From: Caldinitratiruptor microaerophilus
Lineage (GTDB): Bacteria > Bacillota > Sulfobacillia > Symbiobacteriales > ZC4RG38
DNA: 64,000 bases
Assembly (NCBI RefSeq): GCF_025999835.1
Contig: NZ_AP025628.1
Span: 1,116,001 to 1,180,000 of the forward strand
Direction of reading: 5' to 3'
The notes below the pieces were generated by a model. That model worked only from the letters and a program-made list of their open reading frames with translations, had not been told where the DNA came from and ran no database searches. Made by a program: the position numbers and the translations under genes. Position 1 is the first letter of the stretch, and every line of letters starts with the position of its first letter. This document shows positions 36,918 to 61,625 of this stretch, piece by piece.

Positions 36918-38618
36918 CTATCCTGCGCAGCACGAGAGCCGGGCGACGTCGACGTCGAAGGTGAGGGCCGCCAGCTTGAGGCCCTCGGCCATGGTGAGGT
37001 AGGGGCAGAGCGTCTCCTTCAGGTCCTGGATCGTCAGGCCGAACTTGACGGCCAGCGTGGCGGCGTAGATCACGTCGCCGGCGTTGTCCGCCACCACGTG
37101 GGCGCCCAGGAGCCGGCCGGTGTCTGCGTCGGCGACGAGCTTGAACACGCCGGTGGTCTCCCGGTTGGCCAGCGCCCGAGGCACCGCCTCGAGCGGGAGC
37201 ACGGAGGTGCGGACCGAGTGGCCCGCCGCCCGGGCCCCGGCCTCGGTGAGCCCCACGCTGGCGATGGCCGGCGTGGTGAACGTGACCCGGGGCACGACGC
37301 GCAGGTCCGCCCGGCGGTCGGTGGCGCCCAGGGCGTTGTCGGCCGCCACGGCCCCCTGGTAGGCGGCCACGTAGACGAACTGCGGGCCCATCGTCACGTC
37401 GCCGGCGGCGTGGATGTGGGGCACGTTGGTGCGGAGGTGGTCGTCGATCACCACCTCACCCCGCGCCCCGACCTGGACCCCCGCCCGGTCGAGGGCCAGT
37501 GCGGCCGTGTTCGGCCGCCGGCCGGTCGCCACGAGGAGCTCCTCGGCCTCGACCGCCCGCTGCCGCCCGCCCGCCTCCAGGACGACCCGCTTCCCGGCGC
37601 GGCCCTCTTCGACCCGCAGGTAGCGGACCCCCGTGAGGACCTCGATCCCCTGCTCAGCGAGCATCCGGGCCACGACCGCCGAGATCTCCGGGTCGTACGC
37701 CTTCAGGAGCCGCTCGCCGCGCTGCATGAGCGTGACCCGGGCGCCCAGGTGGCGAAAGAGCTGTCCCAGCTCCAGGGCGACGTACCCCGATCCGATGACG
37801 GCCAGGCTCTCGGGCACCCGGCGCAGCTCCAGCGCCGTGGTGCTGGTGAGGAAGTCGACGTCCCCGAGCCCCGGGATGTCCGGTACGGCGGGGTCGGCTC
37901 CCGTCGCGATGAGGAACGCCTTGCCGCGGATCAGCCGGTCGCCGACCTGCACGGCGGTCGCATCGACGAACCGGGCCTCGCCGCAGACGAAGTCGAAGCC
38001 GTACGCGTCGATCAGGGCCTCGTACTTCTCGCGGCGCAACCTGGTCACAAGCTCGCCCTTCTGCCCCACCAGGAGGCTCATGTCGACCGGGCCCGCACTC
38101 GTGCTCAGCCCGGCGAAGGGATGGCTGCGGGCCCGGAAGTGGATCTCTGCCGCCCGCAGGAGCGTCTTCGAAGGTACGCAGCCGATGTTCACGCAGGTCC
38201 CGCCGGTCACCCCGCGCTCGATCATCACCACCCGGGCTCCCCGCTCGCTGGCCTGGATGGCCGCCGAGAAGGCTGCGGCCCCCGAGCCGATGATCACCAG
38301 GTCATAGGGGTCACCCTTCCCCTGGATGTCGCGGACGGGCAGGCCCGCACGGTCGACCGGTTGCCGGACCGATTCGCCCTCCGGGTCCAGGAACTCGAGC
38401 TCCCCCGGCTCATAGCCGGCCCGGCGCACCGCCTCCCGGAGCTGCTCCGGGTCGAAGCCGGCCGGCAGCCGGAGGCGCGCCTCACCGCGCCGGAAGTCGG
38501 CGCGCACGTCCTGTGCCCCGACCCGGACGAGCGCCTCCGTCACGTGCTCCTCGCAGCCCGTGCAGGTCATCCCCCGCACCTCGAGCCGCGCCGCCCGTGC
38601 CGCGGTCTCCTGTGCCAT
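36918..38618 (-). CDS. merA: mercuric reductase MerA with N-terminal HMA domain
   Basis: Reduces Hg(II) to volatile Hg(0) with NADPH and FAD. 566 aa: HMA (MerP-like) domain with Cys19 and Cys22 (GMTCTGC), FAD site [16 protein letters not shown], redox active [10 protein letters not shown] near residue 140, NAD motif [15 protein letters not shown], and the C-terminal vicinal Cys pair (SCCAG, Cys563-Cys564) that receives Hg. All functional cysteines are present. Downstream of a CmtR-like repressor gene (199-bp gap). No merT or merP transport gene is seen nearby. Confidence 0.95.
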
Positions 38619-38786
38619 CGTGACACCAGCTCCTGACCCGTACTGGAATGCACGGCCTGCTTCACGCCGTGGCCAGCCGCTGTGACCGTCCTGCGGAGCG
38701 AACGTCCTGGGGGCCCACGCGCAGCCCTCTCAACTCATGCCGGTGACAGTCAGGGCCGCCGTGACAGCTCTCCGGGGGCAGGGCGC

Positions 38787-38805
38787 CAGGGCCGAAAAAG
38801 CCCTG
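38787..38805 (-). terminator. hairpin after the CmtR-like gene
   Basis: CAGGGC/GCCCTG with a 7-nt loop, 13 bp beyond the repressor stop on the minus strand. It may end or attenuate transcription before merA. The rest of the 38619-38817 gap has no other clear element. Confidence 0.4.
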
Positions 38806-38817
38806 TCTTGAGGCGGC

Positions 38818-39177
38818 TCATCCCTGTCCCATCCGGGTGCAGGAGCGGACATGCTCGGCGTTGTCCGCGACGACCGCGCGCGCCAGCCGGATGATCTCCC
38901 GGATGCGCGGGTCGGTGACCCGGTAGTACACGAACTTCCCCTCGCTCCGGGAGGTGACGTACCCGCACCACTTCAGGCAGGCCAGCTGGTTCGAGACCTG
39001 ACTCTGGGACATCCCCACGGCCTCCGTGATCTGGCTCACGTTCATCTCCCCGCGTTCGAGGAGGAACTCGATGATCTTGAGCCGGGTGGGGTTGGCGAGC
39101 CCGTCGAAGAACTTCGCGTGGAGTTCCCACCGGCGGGTCTCGTCGCCCGGCAGCCAGACCGCCTGTCCGTGCTCCAT
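38818..39177 (-). CDS. ArsR-family metal repressor, CmtR-like
   Basis: 119-aa winged-helix repressor. Recognition helix region SQSQVSNQLACLKWCGYV carries Cys67 and Cys71, the same Cys-x3-Cys placement as the Cd/Pb sensor CmtR; a third ligand, Cys113, lies in the C-terminal helix (HVRSCTRM), again as in CmtR. It probably senses Hg(II), Cd(II) or Pb(II) and controls merA. ATG at 39177 preferred because GAGGTGG precedes it; the in-frame ATG at 39201 has no ribosome site. Confidence 0.85.
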   Translation of the reverse strand: MEHGQAVWLPGDETRRWELHAKFFDGLANPTRLKIIEFLLERGEMNVSQITEAVGMSQSQVSNQLACLKWCGYVTSRSEGKFVYYRVTDPRIREIIRLARAVVADNAEHVRSCTRMGQG

Positions 39178-39198
39178 CGCGTGGCCACCTCGGGAGAT

Positions 39199-39222
39199 CA
39201 TATCTAGATCTCGAAATATATG
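39199..39222 (-). promoter_or_regulatory. AT-rich dyad upstream of the CmtR-like gene
   Basis: CATAT (39199-39203) and ATATG (39218-39222) flank an AT-rich core, 22 bp before the start codon. This fits an ArsR-family operator overlapping a promoter, but I cannot place the -35 surely. Confidence 0.35.
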
Positions 39223-39435
39223 GTTTCAGTGTAGCTCCGCAGACGCGCGAGCGTCAAGTCCGGAGTGTGGATGTCCGGTGTATGGACGAGGGGCCGGACG
39301 GCCAAGACCGCCCCGTGCACCGCAACGGCCATCGGGACGGGCAGGGTCACGGCGGGCGCCCCCCGGTACCCCGCCGGGCAACCGGCCCCGTGCCGTGTGG
39401 CAGCGAGGCGTGTCGGGGGTGCGATCACCACGAGG

Positions 39436-39466
39436 TTGACTCATCATCCAATCGTGATAAGATGAT
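39436..39466 (+). promoter_or_regulatory. promoter and operator of the ArsR-ArsC fusion gene
   Basis: TTGACT (39436-39441), 16 bp, TAAGAT (39458-39463). The dyad ATCATC (39443-39448) / GATGAT (39461-39466) spans the spacer and -10, the usual position for an ArsR repressor site. This supports autoregulation and a translation start after 39466. Confidence 0.55.
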
Positions 39467-39503
39467 CCCGATGAGACCGCTCGGTGGAAAGGCGGCAACG
39501 TGC

Positions 39504-40376
39504 ATGGAGCAGCTGGTGGCCCGTGCCAAGGCCCTCGCCGATCCGACTCGCCTCAAGCTCCTGCGCATCCTCGTCGAGCGGGAGTGCTCGGTCCACGAAC
39601 TGGTCGACGTCCTGGCCACAGGCCAGTCCCGGGTCTCCCAGCACCTCGCCCGGCTGAAGGCGGCGGGCCTCGTGCGGGAGCGCAGGTCCGGCCGCGAGGT
39701 CTTCTACTCCGCCCGGGCCGACGTCCTGTTCGGATTGGACCAGGATCTGTCGGCGTTCTTCCACACTCCGATCGAACGGCTCCCAGACATGCGCGGCGAG
39801 TGGCGGCGCTGGTGCGCCGCCGGCCCCTCGCAGCCGGATCCCACCGGGCAGACGGGCGGTGCCGGCGCGCGGGGCGGGGACGCCCTGCCGCTCGTCTTCA
39901 AGCCGGAGCCGGCGGCGGCAGCCGGCCGGCCCACGGGAGGGGCAGGGCAGCGAAGGCCCAGGGTGCTTTTCCTCTGCACGGCCAACTCGTTCCGGAGCCA
40001 GATCGCGGAGGCGTGGGCCCGGGTCCTGGGCGGACGCCGGGTGGAGGTGCAGAGCGCCGGGCTCGAGCCCACGCGAATCCATCCGCTGGCCGAGGCGGTG
40101 ATGCGTGAGGTGGGCATCGACCTGGAGGGTCAGTATGCCAAGGCCGTGACGCCGGAGATGCTCGACCAGGCGGACGTGGTGGTCACGCTGTGCGGTCCTG
40201 CCCTGGCCTGGTTCCCCGCCACCCGGCGCGAGGTGCGGCGCGAGCACTGGCCCCTGCCGGACCCGACGGTGCTGGGCGGGCCGGAGGACACCGTGCTCCG
40301 CGAGGGTCGCCGCGTCCGGGACCAGATCCGGCGCCGGGTCGAGGCGCTCCTGGATTCCCTCGGGCGGGCGTCGTGA
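39504..40376 (+). CDS. ArsR repressor fused to LMW-phosphatase-type arsenate reductase (ArsC)
   Basis: 290 aa in one frame: an ArsR-type winged helix (ALADPTRLKLLRILVERECSV, SRVSQHLARLKAAGLV; residues about 1-95), a Pro/Gly/Ala linker (to about 150), and an LMW-PTP fold domain. The phosphate loop CTANSFR has Cys158 and Arg164; Cys230 (VVTLCG) corresponds to the second cysteine of thioredoxin-coupled ArsC. The third cysteine, normally seven residues later, is absent (ALAWFPATR). So the redox relay differs or the domain only binds arsenate. ATG 39504 chosen because promoter and operator cover 39436-39466. A single gene could sense and reduce arsenate. Confidence 0.85.
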   Translation: MEQLVARAKALADPTRLKLLRILVERECSVHELVDVLATGQSRVSQHLARLKAAGLVRERRSGREVFYSARADVLFGLDQDLSAFFHTPIERLPDMRGEWRRWCAAGPSQPDPTGQTGGAGARGGDALPLVFKPEPAAAAGRPTGGAGQRRPRVLFLCTANSFRSQIAEAWARVLGGRRVEVQSAGLEPTRIHPLAEAVMREVGIDLEGQYAKAVTPEMLDQADVVVTLCGPALAWFPATRREVRREHWPLPDPTVLGGPEDTVLREGRRVRDQIRRRVEALLDSLGRAS

Positions 40377-41153: not shown

Positions 41154-41214
41154 CGGCGCCTCCGGCCGGGTACAGTCCAGGTCGCCCACGACGGGGGCGC
41201 CGGCCCTGAGCCTC

Positions 41215-41374
41215 AGATGTGCAATACAGGAACCGCTACGGTCCGGCTTGCGGGTACGGAAGTGCACAACAGCCCCCTCGCGCACCGGGACCGTGGGGGG
41301 TGGGAGTCGAAATCACGGCCTGAGGTTTTCCATAAGTGCACGTTCTGTCAACCAAGGCACAGGCTCCGGCCCGC
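41215..41374. repeat. 160-bp tandem repeat, copy 1
   Basis: First of two adjacent 160-bp units, about 87% identical by hand count (20 mismatches); the first 86 bp differ at only 2 positions. The unit can fold: TGTGCA with TGCACA outer stem, CCGC with GCGG inner stem, and a CCCCC/GGGGG hairpin. No convincing gene lies here. The non-coding gap runs from 41154 to 41748. Confidence 0.75.
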
Positions 41375-41534
41375 AGATGTGCAATACAGGAACCGCTACG
41401 GTCCGGCTTGTGGGTACGGAAGTGCACAACAGCCCCCTCGCGCACCGGGATCGTGGGGGGACAGGGTCACAATCACGACCTGAGGTCTTTCATACGTGCA
41501 TCTTCTGTCAACCCACGCACATCCTCCGGCCTTC
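41375..41534. repeat. 160-bp tandem repeat, copy 2
   Basis: Second unit, starting exactly where copy 1 ends. One of its two changes in the conserved half turns a GCGG stem arm to GTGG, keeping a G-U pair, which hints at an RNA structure. The sequence after it (41535-41595) looks like a strongly degraded third unit. It ends about 215 bp before the CadC-like gene. Confidence 0.75.
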
Positions 41535-41748: not shown

Positions 41749-42144
41749 GTGGCAGCAGAGCCGGCGCGGGGCCGGCCGGAAGTGGCCCCGGTCTGCCAGG
41801 TCAACGTGGTCCATGAGGACCGGGTGAACCGGCTCCGGCCCGAGGTGGAGAGGATCGAGGGTCTGGCGGGGATCTTCAAGGCCCTCGCCGACGACACGCG
41901 GCTGAAGGTGGTGTACGCACTGAGCCGCGACGAACTGTGCGTGTGCGACGTGGCCGCCCTGATCGGCGGCAGCAAGGCCGCCGCCTCCTACCACCTCCGC
42001 CTCCTCCACCACATGGGGCTGGCGAGGTACCGGAGAGAAGGCAAGCTCGTCTACTACCGCCTCGCCGACCCGCACGTCGGGGAACTGGTCCGGCAGGTCC
42101 TGGAGCGGGTCGAAACGGCGAAGTCCGTTCCAGGAGGGCGCTGA
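41749..42144 (+). CDS. ArsR-family metal repressor, CadC-like
   Basis: 131-aa winged-helix repressor of the CadC/SmtB group. Metal-site residues: Cys64 and Cys66 (ELCVCDVAALIGG) in the helix before the recognition helix, as in CadC, and one N-terminal Cys16 (PVCQVNV) where CadC has two. Recognition part SKAAASYHLRLLHHMGLARY. It probably derepresses with Cd(II), Pb(II) or Zn(II). GTG start behind GGGAGGG. Upstream, TTGACA (41656-41661) and the dyad TCAAG/CTTGA (41687-41702) may be its promoter and operator. It is followed 3 bp later by cadA. Confidence 0.88.
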   Translation: MAAEPARGRPEVAPVCQVNVVHEDRVNRLRPEVERIEGLAGIFKALADDTRLKVVYALSRDELCVCDVAALIGGSKAAASYHLRLLHHMGLARYRREGKLVYYRLADPHVGELVRQVLERVETAKSVPGGR

Positions 42145-42147
42145 CGG

Positions 42148-44382
42148 ATGGCGCGTGCCGGGGACGCCCTTCGGGCAAGCAGGGCGGTGCTCCAGGTCGA
42201 CGGTATCACCTGACTGGACTGCGCCGCCAAGTTCGAGCGCAGCGTGGCGGCGCTCCCTGGCGTGACCAGGGCGGTGCTCAACCCGGCGACCGGCAGGCTG
42301 ACGGTCGAGGGCGTGGTCGACCTCGAGGCGATCCGCCGGGAGGGCCGGAAGGAGAACTACACCATCGCCCCGATCGGGACCGTCCCGGCCGATCCAACCC
42401 CCGCCGGAGAGAGGCGCGCCCCGGGCCGGGGCGCCCGCCCCACCGGGCGGGGCGTCGACTGGGGCCTCGTCCGGACGCTGGTGTCCGGCGCGGCCCTTGC
42501 CGCCGCCTTCGTCGCCGCACGGGCCGGTGCGGCTGCAGCCGTCTTCGTCCCGCTCTACGTGGCGGCCATGGTGATCGGCGGCTGGGGCAACGCCCGGAAG
42601 GCGTACCACGCCCTGCCGCGGCTCGACTTCAACATGAGCGTGCTCATGACCGTCGCCGTCATCGGGGCGGCGGCCATCGGCGAGTGGGAAGAGGGCGCCA
42701 TCGTCGCCTTCCTGTACGCCGTCTCCGAACTGCTCGAGTCCCGGACGATGGACCGGGCCCGCCGGTCCATCCGCGAGCTGATGGACCGAGCCCCGCGGGT
42801 GGCGACCGTCCGCCGCGACGGTGGCGAGGTGCAGGTCCCCGCCGCCGAGGTCCGGGTGGGCGACGTGGTGATCATCTGGCCGGGCGAGATGATCCCGGTC
42901 GACGGGCGGGTCGTCGCCGGACGGTCGGCGGTCGACGAGGCTCCCATCACGGGCGAGTCCGTCCCGGTCGACAAGGAGCCCGGCGCCGAGGTCTTCGCCG
43001 GCACCCTGAACACGGACGGATCCCTCGAGGTCGAGGTGACCCGCCGGGCCGAGGACACGACCCTCGCCCGGATCATCCACCTGGTGGAGGAGGCGCAGGC
43101 GAGGCGGGCGCCCTCGCAGGCCTTCGTCGACCGCTTCGCGGCCGTGTACACCCCGATCGTCCTGACCCTGGCGGCGGGCCTGGCGGTGGTGCCGCCGCTC
43201 GTCTTCGACCGGGACTGGGGGCCGTGGATCTACCGCGGCCTGGCCCTCTTGGTGGTCTCCTGCCCCTGCGCCCTGGTCGTCTCCACACCGGTGGCGATCG
43301 TGAGCGCCATCGCCAACGCAGCGCGGCACGGGGTACTCATCAAGGGCGGCGTCCACCTCGAGGCAGCCGGCGCCCTCACGGCCGTCGCCTTCGACAAGAC
43401 GGGCACCCTGACCCGGGCCCGGCCGGCGGTCACGGACGTGGTCCCGCTCGGAGACCGCACGGCCGGTGACCTGCTGGCGCTCGCCGCCGCCGTCGAGGCG
43501 CGCTCGGAGCACCCGCTGGCGGCGGCCGTCCTGCGGGAGGCCCAGGCCCGCGGCCTCCGCCCCGAGCCGGCCGGAGACTTCGCCGCGCTGGCGGGTCGGG
43601 GTGCCCGGGCCACCGTGGGCGGCGAGACGGTCTACATCGGCAACCCGGCGCTGTTCGAGGAGCTCGGGATTCCCGTCGGGCCGGCCGGGGAGCAGGTGCG
43701 CCGCCTGCAGGCGGAAGGGAAGACCGCCGTTCTGGTGGGTACGGCGCAGGGGCCGCTGGGGGTCATCGCCATGGCCGACGAGGTGCGGGAGACCGCCCGG
43801 GCCACCCTCGACGCCTTGCGCAGGGCCGGCATCCGCCACACCGTCATGCTCACGGGCGACAACGAGGCCACCGCACGGGCCATCGCCGCGCGCGTGGGCG
43901 TCGACGAGGTTCAGAGCCAGCTCCTGCCGCAGGACAAGGTGCGGGCGGTCGAGGCCCTCCGCCGGCGCCACGGGAAGGTCGCCATGGTCGGCGACGGGAT
44001 CAACGACGCCCCGGCCCTCGCGGCGGCGACCGTCGGCATCGCCATGGGCGGGGCGGGCACGGACGCCGCGCTGGAGACGGCGGACATCGTGCTCATGGCC
44101 GACGACCTGACGAAGCTGCCCTTCACCGTCCGGCTGAGCCGGGCGACCCTGCGGGTCATCCGGCAGAACATCGCCTTCTCCATCGCGGTGAAACTCCTGG
44201 CGGTCCTGGCGGCGTTCCCCGGCTGGCTCACCCTCTGGCTGGCCATCCTTGCCGACATGGGGGCCTCCGTCCTCGTCACGCTGAACGGGATGCGGCTCCT
44301 CCGGGTGGAGCCCCGTCACCGGACCGACCCGCCCACCTCCGAGGCCCGCGCGAGGAGCTCACTCAGGGACACGACGCGGTAA
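42148..44382 (+). CDS. cadA: CadA heavy-metal P1B-type ATPase with in-frame UGA at the first HMA cysteine
   Basis: Exports Cd(II), Zn(II) or Pb(II). 744 residues if the UGA at codon 22 (42211-42213) is read through. N-terminal HMA domain reads VLQVDGIT-(UGA)[11 protein letters not shown], where CadA normally has GFTCxxCAxKFE, so UGA replaces the first metal-binding Cys. Further motifs are intact: C372-P-C374 in a membrane helix, phosphorylated Asp416 (DKTGTLT), SEHPLA, and [10 protein letters not shown]. The ATG at 42148 has GGAGGG nine bases upstream, 3 bp after the cadC-like stop. Without read-through, translation would have to restart at GTG 42244, losing half the HMA domain. Selenocysteine or a nonsense mutation are the options. 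Confidence 0.85.
42221..42253 (+). other. candidate bacterial SECIS hairpin after the cadA UGA
   Basis: GCGCCGCC (42221-42228) pairs perfectly with GGCGGCGC (42246-42253), plus one A-U pair inside. The 15-nt loop starts 16 nt after the UGA and has G as its second base. Bacterial SECIS elements lie directly downstream of UGA with a G near the start of the apical loop. The distance fits; the loop is slightly long. GC-rich coding DNA often forms such stems, so this is only suggestive. Confidence 0.35.
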
Positions 44383-58891: not shown

Positions 58892-60058
58892 TTGCCATCC
58901 TCAGGTTCCGTAGTCTACCTGGACAACGCCGCGACCTCGCACCCGAAGCCCGAGGCCGTGTACCGTGCGGCGGACGGGGCGCTGCGTGCCGGCGGCAACC
59001 CCGGCCGCGGCGGCCACCGGGTTGCCCTGGCCGCCGGCCGGCGGGTGCTTGCCGCCCGCGAGGCGGTGGCGGCGCTCTTCGGTGTGAAGGATGCAGCCCG
59101 GGTACTGTTCACGTCGAGTGCCACCGACTCCCTGAACCTGGCCCTGAAAGGCCTCCTGCACCCCGGGGACCACTGCATCACCACCGTGGCGGAGCACAAC
59201 GCCCTGCGCCGCCCGCTGGTGGCCCTGGCCCTCCGGGGGGTCGAGGTGACGTGGCTCCCCGTGTCGCCGGAGGGGATCGTGGACCCGGGCGGGGTCCGGG
59301 CCGCCCTGCGTCCGAACACCCGGCTCATCGCCCTGGCGCACGGTTCCAACGTCACGGGCGCGCTGCAGCCGGTGGCCGAGCTGGGGGAGATCGCCCGCCG
59401 CGCCGGCGTCTTCCTCCTCGTGGACGCCGCCCAGACCGCGGGTTCCCACCCCATCGACGTGGAGGCAATGGGGATCCACCTTCTCGCTGCCCCCGGACAC
59501 AAGGGCCTCCTGGGCCCGCAGGGGACCGGCATCCTTTACGTCGCCCCCGACGTGCCGCTCCGCCCCGTCCGCGAGGGCGGCACGGGGTCCATGGCCACCC
59601 TGGCCGAGCAGCCGGACGTGTTCCCCGAGGGGTTCGAGAGCGGGACGCTCAACGTCCCGGGCATCGCTGGAGTGGGGGCCGGGGCGGATTTCCTGCTGTC
59701 GGTCGGGGTCGAGGCGGTCCACGCCCGGGTGGGCGCCCTGACCGCGGCACTGGTGGAGGGGCTCCGTCGCCTGCCAGGTGTGACCGTCCACGGCCCCGCG
59801 GACCCGGCGCGCCGGTGCGGGGTGGTGAGCCTGAGCGTGGACGGGCTCGACCCGGGCGCGCTGGAAGAGCAGCTCGACTCGGCGTTCGGCGTCGTCGGGC
59901 GCGCGGGCCTGCACTGCGCGCCCGGGGCCCACGAGGTGCTCGGCACTCTGCCCCTGGGCGGCACGATGCGCCTGAGCCCCGGATACTTCAACACGGAAGA
60001 GGACATCGAGGCCGCGGTGAAGGCCGTCGCTGCCGTGGCGGCCCTGGCCCGGCGCTGA
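58892..60058 (+). CDS. cysteine desulfurase-like aminotransferase (resembles TIGR01977)
   Basis: PLP enzyme, 388 aa, that should release sulfur (or selenium from selenocysteine) for a carrier. Class V signatures: YLDNAATSHPKPEAV, GGNPGRGGHR, TSSATDSLNLAL, VAEHNALRRPL, and the PLP lysine in APGHKGLLGPQG. The NPGRGxH segment points to the EF2568/TIGR01977 group, which often occurs with SelD and selenium-dependent enzymes, rather than to IscS. The catalytic Cys region GRAGLHCAPGAHE has Cys about residue 341. TTG 58892 behind AAGGCGGTGG. First gene of an operon with CopD-like, cupin and DUF3343 genes. Confidence 0.85.
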   Translation: MPSSGSVVYLDNAATSHPKPEAVYRAADGALRAGGNPGRGGHRVALAAGRRVLAAREAVAALFGVKDAARVLFTSSATDSLNLALKGLLHPGDHCITTVAEHNALRRPLVALALRGVEVTWLPVSPEGIVDPGGVRAALRPNTRLIALAHGSNVTGALQPVAELGEIARRAGVFLLVDAAQTAGSHPIDVEAMGIHLLAAPGHKGLLGPQGTGILYVAPDVPLRPVREGGTGSMATLAEQPDVFPEGFESGTLNVPGIAGVGAGADFLLSVGVEAVHARVGALTAALVEGLRRLPGVTVHGPADPARRCGVVSLSVDGLDPGALEEQLDSAFGVVGRAGLHCAPGAHEVLGTLPLGGTMRLSPGYFNTEEDIEAAVKAVAAVAALARR

Positions 60059-61406: not shown

Positions 61407-61625
61407 ATGGGCCGGGTCTACCTCGTCTTTCGAAGCACCCACGAGACGCTGAAGGCCGAGTCCGTTCTGGCGGTGGCGGGGCTTCCTTGCAAGGTTGTGG
61501 TGAAGCCGGCGTCGATCCGGCTCGACTGCGGCCTCGCCGTGCGCACCGATCCCGGGCAGCAAGACACGGCCCTGGCCGCCCTCCGGCAGGCGGGCCTGGA
61601 GCCGAGGGGGGTCTTCAACCTCTGA
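61407..61625 (+). CDS. DUF3343 protein (putative Se/S carrier-like)
   Basis: 72 aa, matching DUF3343, a family described as putative selenium/sulfur carriers: YLVFRSTHETLKAESVLAVAG, then LPCKVVVKP and SIRLDCGLAV. The two cysteines (residues about 28 and 41) fit the family. Its partner may be the desulfurase three genes upstream. ATG start. Its 3' end overlaps the convergent NnrS-like gene by 11 bp. Confidence 0.8.
   Translation: MGRVYLVFRSTHETLKAESVLAVAGLPCKVVVKPASIRLDCGLAVRTDPGQQDTALAALRQAGLEPRGVFNL

Follow-up and report, generated by a model that had tools for sequence, protein, structure and literature searches.

A conserved in-frame UGA, very probably read as selenocysteine, in the metal-binding domain of a heavy-metal pump of Caldinitratiruptor microaerophilus

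A heavy-metal pump gene of Caldinitratiruptor microaerophilus contains an early in-frame TGA, which raises the question of whether this codon is read as selenocysteine (Sec) or marks a broken gene. The gene lies at 42148..44382 on the forward strand of the stretch of DNA that was analyzed (64,000 nucleotides, hereafter the window). Its frame runs from ATG 42148 to TAA 44380-44382 over 744 codons, with one internal stop at codon 22 (TGA 42211-42213). Both the start codon and the integrity of the rest of the gene, asserted in a preliminary description made from the sequence, held up. A Shine-Dalgarno sequence, AGGAGG (42132-42137, forward strand), stands 10 nt 5' of the ATG, and 3 nt before that codon lies the end of an ArsR-family gene (42142-42144); apart from codon 22 the frame is open up to the TAA, and direct reading found the motifs SCPCALV, DKTGTLT, SEHPLA and GDGINDAPA. 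Profile searches matched the product to TIGR01525 (629.8 bits, cut-off 346.25) and to the cadmium family TIGR01512 (545.6 bits, cut-off 313.5), and Pfam domains HMA, E1-E2_ATPase and Hydrolase were detected. The features by which CadA/ZntA P1B-2 ATPases are recognized, namely the catalytic DKTGT, the membrane CPC and the HMA domain, are all present. The protein is thus predicted to be an exporter of the Cd/Zn/Pb class among P1B-type ATPases, the TIGR01512 match being no more than suggestive as to the metal transported. A scan of genome contigs gave loci at 52% identity or less in the matched segment. The HMA metal-binding domain covers residues 14-71 (42187..42360, forward strand; PF00403, 47.5 bits against 24.8 with U written as C). 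As had been noticed, the UGA occupies the position of the first Cys in the GxTCxxC metal motif, giving a UxxC that reads U22-L-D-C25.

The gene just 5' of the pump encodes an ArsR/SmtB metalloregulator (41749..42144, forward strand; PF01022; NF033788, 89.3 bits against 55). The two genes probably form one operon, and the pump is probably under the control of this ArsR-type repressor. Upstream of the operon, a non-coding-looking repeat of 160 nt occurs twice in tandem with 86% identity (41196-41515). The window also has a metal-resistance island at 36918-40376. Its members are a mercuric reductase, MerA (TIGR02053, 604 bits), whose N-terminus is HMA-like, a regulator of the ArsR family and an open reading frame in which an ArsR-type domain is fused to an arsenate reductase domain of the ArsC type.

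We sought orthologues of the pump among relatives, in the class and across the phylum. Counting the present gene, 18 orthologues in 17 genomes have TGA at this same codon; the other 17 genes, from 16 genomes, are 50-70% identical to this pump. These Sec forms span both families of the order (G001, G002, G006 and G007, the last with two copies) and are present in several further families of the phylum, whereas the remaining homologues have TGC or TGT at this codon. The close relatives keep TGA rather than a Cys codon, and the case of a strain standing alone with a TGA, which the preliminary description had named as fatal to its proposal, did not materialize. A sequencing error, another such case, is likewise implausible given recurrence at one codon in 17 genomes. 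Since 17 further genes in 16 other genomes carry the same TGA, its presence here is not due to chance. The codons before the UGA are under purifying selection (pN/pS 0.44), as are those from the UGA to GTG 42244 (pN/pS 0.24). A tree from which the HMA domain was excluded shows the Sec forms scattered among the Cys forms, and its well-supported branches force at least six changes between the two. In G003, which we take to be Symbiobacterium thermophilum, the orthologue search and motif scan turned up no close orthologue whose domain is of the Sec form. Symbiobacterium thermophilum has been credited with 12 selenoproteins, with no ATPase among them.

The genome of C. microaerophilus was searched for selA, selB, selC and selD, since absence of selC or selB would have spoken against Sec; all were present. 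It encodes a tRNA-Sec with anticodon UCA (tca), SelA (595.5 bits), SelB (376.2 bits) and two SelD proteins above cut-off, with the motifs GUGCK and GUACK and a TGA at the catalytic Sec position in each. The two selD genes lie at 2013538-2014461 and 1648211-1649131 of the first contig (L156 and L157, G000:C1). Given this tRNA, SelA, SelB and the two UGA-bearing selD genes, UGA is very probably translated as Sec at other sites in C. microaerophilus too. Genes of the TIGR01977 and DUF3343 types are linked to selD-associated selenium traits, and both had been pointed out in the window as a hint of selenium metabolism. The first stood, with a TIGR01977 desulfurase-like gene at about 58913-60034 scoring 408.1 bits against a cut-off of 377; the second is a nearby 72-aa open reading frame (61407-61625) that is DUF3343-like by reading. 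Across the Sec-form genomes, SelA (five genomes) or SelB (12 genomes) was detected in 17 of 17, while the genomes of four Cys-form homologues (G408, 69% identical, G493, G317 and G412) had no SelB above cut-off. The association of the Sec form with the machinery is significant (p 0.04) only if relatedness is left uncorrected, and phylogenetically independent pairs gave two to four cases for and none against, too few to decide.

Insertion of Sec in bacteria would call for a SECIS element after the UGA. The GC-rich hairpin that had been described there exists, at 42221..42253 on the forward strand, with a stem pairing 42221-42229 with 42245-42253 and an apical loop GAGC (42235-42238) 21 nt after the UGA. 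Folding of 42205-42270 gave a minimum free energy (MFE) of -28.6 kcal/mol, mildly unusual for this single sequence against dinucleotide shuffles (z -1.33). Stability by itself is weak evidence, and becomes strong solely through comparison with relatives. Published constraints on bacterial SECIS elements are an apical loop of 3-9 nt with a G in its first two positions, a distance of 16-37 nt from the UGA and an MFE of -7.5 or lower, and most known loops start with GG or GU (PMC13188914). The predicted element agrees with these constraints (loop GAGC, 21 nt from the UGA, -21.3 kcal/mol), although its loop starts with GA. At gathering thresholds Rfam reported a tRNA alone in the whole window, the predicted SECIS matching no Rfam family.

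Comparison with relatives was more telling. In 16 of the 18 Sec genes the predicted apical loop starts exactly 21 nt after the UGA and has G as its first base. Fold z-scores against codon-preserving shuffles averaged -1.74 in the Sec genes vs -0.35 in the Cys genes, although for one distant Sec form (L142) no convincing hairpin was found (z +1.2). In the 14 close Sec genes, codons +1 to +20 show synonymous variation at 0.70 of the expected value, and none of the 621 other windows of the gene is as low; the same codons were unremarkable in 22 Cys genes (1.03). Compensatory changes were seen in two stem pairs, with covariation not above that of shuffles, and this signal is thin because the stem is nearly invariant. 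We therefore take the synonymous-site constraint, set against the Cys control genes, as the deciding evidence for the predicted SECIS; hairpin stability and covariation are too weak for this.

A further conserved hairpin, CCCUGG-(N5)-CCAGGG, adjoins the 3' end of the predicted SECIS (42255..42271, forward strand). Across 14 sequences 94% of its pair cells are formed, with one compensatory change from U-A to C-G (in L128). The codons that make it up (CCT, ACC/TCC and AGG) have a synonymous variation of 0.72 in Sec genes, with nine of 606 windows as low, vs 1.07 and no unusual fixation in Cys genes. This second hairpin, possibly new, may belong to the recoding signal. A tentative, rather doubtful extension would combine a bipartite signal in this ATPase family, SECIS and CCCUGG-CCAGGG hairpin both under coding-independent selection, with a selenolate metal site in the HMA domain that makes metal export dependent on selenium.

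The sequence features by which a selenoprotein is recognized are thus all found: a UGA facing Cys in homologues, its recurrence across species, selA, selB, selC and selD, and a hairpin within the bacterial SECIS constraints. The rival that had been put forward is a plain nonsense mutation, with a working pump restarting downstream, for example at GTG 42244, and lacking the metal-binding loop. A frame of 712 aa is indeed open from this GTG, and the motif scan saw no HMA CxxC in several related pumps (L103, L115 and L119). However, retention of TGA in 17 other genes across deep divergence, purifying selection on both sides of the codon, a synonymous constraint confined to UGA genes and a Shine-Dalgarno sequence placed before ATG 42148 all argue against such a restart. 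The conservation of the UGA effectively refutes this explanation, which we consider very improbable. Even less credible is decoding of the UGA as another amino acid, by Trp insertion or near-cognate suppression, since the aligned homologues have Cys and not Trp opposite the UGA and the genome has a complete Sec system. The pump family is not free of other recodings or errors, as is seen in the 69%-identical Cys-form orthologue of G408, a genome with no SelB above cut-off: where a conserved Trp is expected (W360 of the present pump), this gene (L124, G408:C1:276381-278492) has a TGA, which may be a nonsense mutation, an error or a UGA-Trp code.

Another possibility adds to the Sec reading rather than competing with it. 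The UGA could double as a selenium-dependent switch: supplied with selenium, the cell would make the full-length Sec pump, and without it a shortened pump or none, so that selenium status would set metal export. That Sec insertion competes with termination follows from the mechanism, and, the UGA being early in the gene, termination would leave only a 21-aa peptide. Any Sec gene could bring such a switch with it, however, and we regard its use here as unlikely. For the codon itself, we favor Sec over a nonsense mutation because the UGA is shared by 18 orthologues, the machinery is present, the hairpin fits a SECIS and the synonymous constraint is specific to the Sec set. The Sec P-type ATPase proposed in the preliminary description is thereby supported by the conserved UGA, the machinery and the conserved RNA element, and comparative sequence evidence makes SelB-mediated insertion of Sec at UGA 42211-42213 very probable.

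In the mechanism that we propose, the hairpin at 42221-42253 would recruit SelB with Sec-tRNA-Sec(UCA) to UGA 42211-42213, where the ribosome would insert Sec. In the product, the metal-binding loop of the N-terminal HMA domain would contain Sec-x-x-Cys; this cytosolic domain would sense metal or deliver it to the pump. Judging from knowledge of the family, the likeliest role of Sec would be as a softer, lower-pKa, tighter ligand for a thiophilic metal (Cd, Pb, Hg or Zn), or as a redox-sensitive regulatory site. Most characterized selenoproteins are redox enzymes; a metal pump with Sec in its metal-binding loop would, if confirmed, be a natural case of selenium acting as a metal ligand in transport. 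C. microaerophilus JCM16183 is a cultured hot-spring thermophile with a closed genome, and this, together with Sec/Cys pairs between which no fewer than six interchanges have occurred, allows the role of Sec to be tested directly. Annotation pipelines that take UGA as a stop would predict shortened pumps from which the metal domain is missing.

The first report of a Sec cation-transporting ATPase is said to be that of Zhang and Gladyshev in 2007, on an Olavius algarvensis symbiont. Selenoprotein catalogues have listed E1-E2 metal ATPases with Sec in UxxC from 2007-2008 onward (PMC13188914, PMC9312934, PMC2398784, PMC5029168), so the novelty implied for this pump was overestimated. The Global Ocean Sampling study has one case of a Sec cation-transporting ATPase E1-E2, a survey that covered over 5,200 organisms gives, as we take its columns, 25 organisms and 32 proteins of the family (PMC5029168), and a 2026 review states that Sec residues of this kind of ATPase may bind metal and that their roles need investigation. 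In the accessible literature on E1-E2 selenoproteins we found no bench test of the family and no naming of C. microaerophilus as a source, and a search for Sec metal ATPases under other names found none. On sequence, the present pump is a member of this previously predicted family and agrees with it in every testable respect: a bacterial, sequence-predicted protein, far above the TIGR01525 cut-off, with Sec first in UxxC. With the family's example, ABB15669.1, the likeness is drawn on protein family and motif. The metal-binding (seleno)protein family NF041115, of the UxxU, putative mercuric reductase type, also has an HMA-like domain with Sec in its metal motif; unlike it, the pump has UxxC and not UxxU, its domain is fused to a pump and it scores only 20 bits where the cut-off is 95. 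With the CadA/ZntA Cd(II)/Zn(II)/Pb(II) P1B-type ATPases it shares the HMA domain, the CPC, DKTGT and HP motifs and an ArsR-type regulator upstream, and at 474 bits it matches 7qbz_A, a PDB chain labelled as a cadmium-translocating P-type ATPase. It differs from them in having, by our reading, Sec in place of the first Cys of the HMA CxxC.
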